Assembly (NCBI RefSeq): GCF_937425535.1
Contig: NZ_OW485601.1
Coordinates: 921,001-985,000, forward strand
Length of the DNA stretch: 64,000 nt
DNA from: Rhodovastum atsumiense
Lineage (GTDB): Bacteria > Pseudomonadota > Alphaproteobacteria > Acetobacterales > Acetobacteraceae
Direction: 5' to 3'
The notes below the pieces were generated by a model. It made no database searches. It had not been told where the DNA came from and saw nothing but the letters and a program-made list of their open reading frames with translations. Each line of letters begins with the position of its first letter. The first letter of the stretch is position 1. Of the stretch, positions 14,585-14,792 are shown in pieces. Both the position numbers and the translations under genes were made by a program.

Positions 14585-14600
14585 GCGTCAGGAAAGGCCA

Positions 14601-14671
14601 GGGCTTCGCCCTTGTATCTCAACAGGCACCCGAGCGCGTAGGGTAACGCGCTCGGGAGCGGAAGGGAGCCC
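14601..14671 (+). ncRNA. Candidate IS110 bridge-RNA recognition stem-loop
   Basis: Nested pairing in the non-coding left region of the element: GGGCT (14601-14605) with AGCCC (14667-14671), CCCTT (14609-14613) with AAGGG (14662-14666), an asymmetric internal loop (14614-14628 opposite 14657-14661), then a perfect ten-base-pair stem (14629-14638 with 14647-14656) capped by an eight-base loop. This stem, internal loop, stem, hairpin order resembles a target- or donor-binding loop of IS110-family bridge RNAs. Transcription and loop pairing to element ends are not shown. Confidence 0.45.
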
Positions 14672-14792
14672 GCCTTGCCCTGGGGTGATCGAGCCCGTGG
14701 TCCAGCACGGTGCCCCTTCCGCGGCTATGTCCGTAAGCCCGAACAGTCGCCAGGGACGGCGCAAGTCGATCCCGCATACGCAAGGACGGGTG

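Follow-up and report, generated by a model that had tools for sequence, protein, structure and literature searches.

An IS110-family transposase gene in the 64,000-nucleotide stretch of Rhodovastum atsumiense DNA analyzed here (the window, on contig C1 of a 7.4-Mb genome, G000) is preceded by a non-coding leader, which raises the question of whether this leader encodes a bridge RNA and which DNA such an RNA would select. Two reports, in their accessible portions, describe bridge RNAs as a feature of IS110 elements in general (PMC11208160, PMC11187229). A preliminary description of the window had proposed one for the left region of this element, and that interpretation is supported by the element ends, the guide matches and covariation among homologues. 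The leader (about 14613-14791) very probably gives rise to a guide RNA by which the landing site of the element is chosen. The recombinase is encoded immediately downstream.

14793-15743, forward strand: IS110 recombinase, 316 amino acids (open reading frame, domain matches and structure-chain matches)

The protein matches DEDD (PF01548, 6.6e-25) and Transposase_20 (PF02371, 3.9e-20), both above cut-off, and scores 228 bits against the NCBIfam model "IS110 family RNA-guided transposase", for which the cut-off is 140. Among solved chains, only those of ISCro4 (9t56, the closest, E = 3.2e-40) and IS621 (E = 1.7e-38) match at an E-value of 0.001. Three distant IS110-type genes (L006, L007 and L008) lie within approximately 5 kb of one another at about 4.83 Mb on the same contig.

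The boundaries of the element can be read from its other copies, as the preliminary description had anticipated, with five copies and a set of uninterrupted sites together giving both ends.

14613-15760, forward strand: IS110 element (four copies identical over the span, with different flanks; empty sites)
14611-14612, forward strand: left CT core (left and right junctions compared with empty sites)
15759-15760, forward strand: right CT core (flank comparison of copies)

Of the five copies genome-wide, four, including that in the window, are identical over 14613-15760, and the fifth (L099, contig C3) encodes a protein that is 91% identical to that of the window copy. The flanks of the copies give GCC-CT|TGTATCTC as the left junction and ACAGTCG-CT|GGACC as the right one, and the element is therefore assigned to 14613-15760 with a CT core, its ends being ambiguous by these two bases. 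Uninterrupted repeats exist, such as CCAGGGCTCTGCCCTGGACC in L120 and L126. In a search of 40 genomes (its own and 39 relatives), the matches listed comprised the occupied site, the repeat and portions of neighboring genes, with no uninterrupted version of the site in the window among them; the empty-site evidence thus consists of repeats in the same genome and the L099 site on contig C4. There are 180 bases of element upstream of the transposase gene and 17 bases between its stop codon and the right end, and the longer non-coding region precedes the gene, as in the IS110 group of the family; long subterminal inverted repeats are a mark of IS1111. All five matches to the leader in this genome lie directly 5′ of a transposase gene, with no leader copy lacking one. 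The span originally described as leader, 14585-14792, begins 28 bases outside the element. Judged from its sequence, and with its reading frame intact as first described, this is an intact IS621-type IS110 insertion.

Both flanks of the insertion belong to a palindromic repeat.

14598-14612, forward strand: left target half, REP-like palindrome CCAGGGC-TTC-GCCCT, outside the element (copy flanks, empty sites)
15761-15794, forward strand: right target half, GGACC plus the palindrome after it, outside the element (flank comparison, empty sites)

The sequence CCAGGGCNNNGCCCTGGACC occurs 146 times in the genome and its reversed control not at all, and GCCCTGGACC occurs 239 times compared with 46 for its control. 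Among the matches listed, some of the palindromes oppose each other in pairs with a spacing of about 100 bases, and the target has the properties of a REP: a short palindrome, high copy number and some opposed pairs. The two bases 5′ of GCCCT are pyrimidines in 20 of 21 repeat copies (loci L100-L129), and it could be that the two U residues of the guide opposite these bases read top-strand C or T through U-G pairs. Among the matches listed, similar repeats also occur in the six genomes of the same genus that were searched.

The small number of copies, five against 146 matching repeats, might suggest an element that carries its bridge RNA by descent and is now immobile in its own genome. This seems unlikely, because the reading frame is intact and four copies, each at a different site, show no difference anywhere within the element, an identity that suggests recent movement. 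The reading preferred here remains an IS621-like element with a bridge-RNA leader, and the predicted structure of that RNA is as follows.

About 14613-14791, forward strand: predicted bridge RNA (consensus fold of 25 leaders; covariance model matches)
14626-14659, forward strand: putative 5′ stem-loop containing the ten-base-pair hairpin (shuffle z of -6.1)
14658-14722, forward strand: target-binding stem-loop, with outer stem 14658-14666/14714-14722 and inner stem 14683-14685/14694-14696
14738-14790, forward strand: donor-binding stem-loop, with outer stem 14738-14741/14787-14790 and inner stem 14753-14756/14770-14773 (pair counts)

The RNAalifold consensus of 25 leaders consists of two stem-loops with internal loops, and the leader is predicted to have the IS621 layout, in which the target loop precedes the donor loop, with the compensatory changes that the preliminary description had proposed looking for. 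When the structure is reduced to 20 pairs, 91.9% of cells are paired, compared with 81.4% in shuffled alignments and 33-53% in slid versions, a slid control that leans towards the structure because the latter was derived from the same alignment. Cells changed on both sides number 48, against 13.0 after shuffling. Most of the covariation is carried by the outer target stem, where eight of nine counted pairs have changed on both sides. The donor part alone barely beats its shuffles (z of -1.4, with 19 of 200 equally good), and the leader in the window, folded by itself, has a minimum-energy structure other than the consensus, 4.5 kcal/mol below the constrained fold. A covariance model built from the 25 leaders matches 37 of 51 other loci offered and has no match in L006, L007 or L008. 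No Rfam family matches the leader at gathering scores; malK-III, its sole match at E-values up to 1, was rejected as chance (E = 0.91). Elsewhere in the window, two RNAs exceed their Rfam gathering scores: an alphaproteobacterial tmRNA (3666-3981), for which the permuted tmRNA family scores as well, and an RNase P RNA of class A (24143-24541). The leaders of L080 and L096 have an extra GC-rich hairpin of approximately 25-30 bases, located towards the apex of the donor stem-loop.

The fold first drawn for this region, at 14601-14671, agrees with the consensus in part. Its perfect ten-base-pair stem with an eight-base loop is present as an inverted repeat (14629-14638/14647-14656), is very stable and resides in the same place as the 5′ stem-loop of IS621. 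A hairpin is found at this place in many homologues, with those of L151 and L152 hardly folding one, and column-wise covariation within it was looked for in homologous leaders and not found. The 71-base stretch 14601-14671 as a whole folds with a z of -4.3, and its fold has an asymmetric internal loop and an outer stem close to those first described, but this stem does not belong to the element: bases 14601-14612 are target DNA outside the insertion, where the flank of the fifth copy differs, and its 3′ arm overlaps 14658-14666, which are used in the conserved target-loop stem. The CCAGGGC/GCCCTGG pairing, proposed as an alternative outer helix at 14599-14605 with 14677-14683, does exist, with its first strand at 14598-14604, but CCAGGGC belongs to the flanking target DNA and GCCCTGG shares bases with the left target guide, so that the pairing arises from the resemblance of the palindromic flank to the guide and not from a helix of the element.

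If the leader is a bridge RNA, its internal loops should correspond to the DNA on both sides of the reaction, and all four candidate guides do match their DNA. The original suggestion that the loops state the target is borne out in this respect, with guides that match both the target and the element ends; they are located at 14674-14705 and 14743-14784 rather than within 14601-14671. Those directed at the element ends are listed here.

14743-14750, forward strand: left donor guide (LDG), ACAGTCGC (seven-base identity with the right element end)
15752-15758, forward strand: left donor ACAGTCG, at the right element end (flank comparison; LDG identity)
14776-14784, forward strand: right donor guide (RDG), AT-ac-GCAAG (discontiguous pairing with CTTGTAT)
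14613-14617, forward strand: right donor TGTAT, at the left element end (pairs with the RDG; outermost base)

The LDG equals the right element end over seven bases in 68 of 70 loci, which represent six sequence types, and permuted pairs gave a mean of 26 and at highest 41 in 20,000 trials; this comparison left out the 40 of 110 loci without single anchors. The two exceptions are L084, where the anchor lies in the left flank, and L148, where the right end reads ACAGGCG. The outermost base of the RDG is complementary in 34 of 36 loci, the other 74 of the 110 lacking single anchors. In the window, the RDG pairs with CTTGTAT by way of two skipped bases and a G-T pair, a pattern that is also reported for the RDG of IS621 in the accessible text of PMC11208158.

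The guides directed at the target reside in the first loop.

14674-14681, forward strand: left target guide (LTG), CTTGCCCT, ending in the core CT (permutation test, 20 guides)
14699-14705, forward strand: right target guide (RTG), GGTCCAG, reverse complement of CTGGACC (permutation tests; change at 14703 in L099)

Single anchors were available for the RTG in 33 of 110 homologous loci (77 being left out), which yielded 22 different pairings of guide and flank, with 18 different guides among them. These guides match their own flanks at 81 of 90 bases, compared with 32.2 ± 5.4 for reassigned flanks, and none of 100,000 reassignments, which do not model kinship, reached the observed total. For 15 of the 18, no other flank fits better than the cognate one. 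By pair, the match is five of five bases in 14 of 22 and four of five in six, with L132 at three and L130 at two; the RTG of L143, which the anchor missed, fits its flank by eye. A second set was drawn from covariance-model matches, for which 43 loci were given, 41 matches aligned and 29 proved usable (12 of 41 being left out), with guide position taken as the best over offsets for real and permuted pairs alike. Here 98 of 110 bases match across 22 guides (permuted, 41.7 ± 5.3; 0 of 100,000), with the poorest fits, three of five each, in L011, L015 and L048. This set includes L096, whose sibling L080 had contributed to the model, and shares at least one homologue with the set of 18. For the LTG the correspondence is weaker than for the RTG, with 89 of 120 bases in 20 guides against 70.7 ± 3.3 for permuted pairs (0 of 100,000) and 76 of the 110 loci left out for want of single anchors. 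Only eight of the 20 guides have their cognate flank as the best fit, ties included, and the LTG of the fifth copy matches only three of six bases. The plasmid loci are a sample, drawn from 13 of 1100 plasmid records that had a match.

These comparisons bear on two further explanations. The leader could be a regulatory 5′ UTR that controls translation, with the target read by the protein alone, as its position directly 5′ of the start codon and the sRNA and leader-structure control described for ISPpu9, in the portion of that work available, would allow. This is very improbable, because guide bases track changes in target and donor across diverse homologues, which a UTR alone does not predict. 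That the likeness of guide and target is an accident of GC-rich palindromic repeats is barely conceivable, and on the sequences compared the permutation tests go most of the way to refuting it: the target of the window copy is itself such a palindrome, present 146 times, so that matches within its own genome alone are weak evidence, but homologues with unrelated flanks still match their own guides.

With the leader taken as a bridge RNA, the fifth copy is of particular value. The leaders of the window copy and L099 differ at four of 180 bases (14621, 14641, 14703 and 14708), and the change at 14703 converts the RTG from GGTCCAG to GGTCGAG, matching a right flank that reads CTGGACC beside the window copy and CTCGACC beside L099. 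The recombinase genes differ at 114 of 951 bases (73 synonymous codons, 28 not), a divergence greater than that of the leaders (Fisher p = 1.4e-5). An uninterrupted version of the L099 site, with 100% identity across 122 bases, lies on contig C4, and two further ones match at 96%. The site lies within a 417-amino-acid open reading frame that matches an ISKra4 transposase model (7.6e-71) and has no match in Pfam. Since GCCCTCGACC is common in the genome (178 occurrences versus 46 for the control), this site is not the sole one open. It seems possible, with chances just short of even, that one guide-base change redirected the element between REP-like repeats and the site in an ISKra4-type transposase gene, in either direction. 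As the leader is nearly fixed while the gene has diverged, natural retargeting could then proceed through single-base drift of the guide within an otherwise frozen RNA scaffold, or through copies exchanging their leaders.

Two other pairs can be set beside this one. Elements L151 and L152 on Klebsiella plasmids differ at three of 172 leader bases, one of them in the RTG with a complementary difference in the flank. They form a weaker second case of retargeting and may represent one history, because the two sites resemble alleles of a single locus. In the methylotroph elements L043 and L057, the RTGs (CTGCGAG and CTGCTAG) differ by one base and the flank, CTCGCAG, is the same, leaving one guide mismatched; this is a counter-case to strict matching and possibly reflects drift after insertion. 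Two guides one RTG base apart in one genome, each at a matching site, constitute a built-in natural control, and so make single-base specificity and guide evolution in IS110 directly testable.

Candidate promoter elements lie where the element ends would be joined.

15740-15745, forward strand: -35-like TTGACA (joined ends of homologues)
14615-14620, forward strand: -10-like TATCTC (spacing at homologous junctions)

TTGAC lies exactly 17 bases 5′ of the -10-like hexamer in 29 of 38 joined ends and is lacking at this spacing in nine, as read from sequence. By analogy with IS621, the element would form a circle whose joined ends create a promoter (TTGACA, 17 bases, TATCTC) from which the leader is transcribed. 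The first loop (LTG and RTG) would then pair with both strands of the target GCC-CT-GGACC in a REP-like repeat and the second (LDG and RDG) with the joined element ends ACAGTCG-CT-TGTAT, after which the recombinase would exchange strands at the CT core. The ends, the target, the guide-target and guide-donor matches with their covariation, and the conserved RNA architecture are observed here, and transcription, binding and recombination would follow IS621. That this is an IS621-like IS110 element whose leader is a bridge RNA is highly probable.

The type of bridge RNA is already known, and what is new is this member and a clean natural case of apparent one-base retargeting; among the open papers listed, none treats the present element or one-base retargeting within one genome. 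The decoded RNA makes a target readable from its loop, and the homologues tested (18 and 22 guides, with an overlap of at least one) provide a set of new guide-target pairs. The likeness to IS621 (8wt6 and others), as far as the available portions of PMC11208160 and PMC11208158 describe it, extends to the upstream leader, the short PF01548 and PF02371 recombinase, the CT core, the two-loop RNA, a candidate junction promoter, the RDG pairing and the REP-type target. The host and target are different, and the IS621 RTG uses four bases, whereas seven, including the core, fit here. Of the solved chains, that of ISCro4 is the closest in sequence. IS621 and other IS110 elements are known to have REP-type targets, and ISPa11, ISPpu9, ISPpu10 and ISRm19 likewise insert into such palindromes, according to the accessible part of PMC1525189. 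With the seekRNAs of ISEc21 and ISMch6, the present RNA shares its upstream position and the placement of a bottom-strand guide before a top-strand guide, as described in the portion of PMC11187229 available. Natural redirection has been published there for ISMch6, where three guide bases are altered between elements with 72% protein identity, whereas in the present case a single RTG base is altered between copies that reside in one genome and encode proteins 91% identical.
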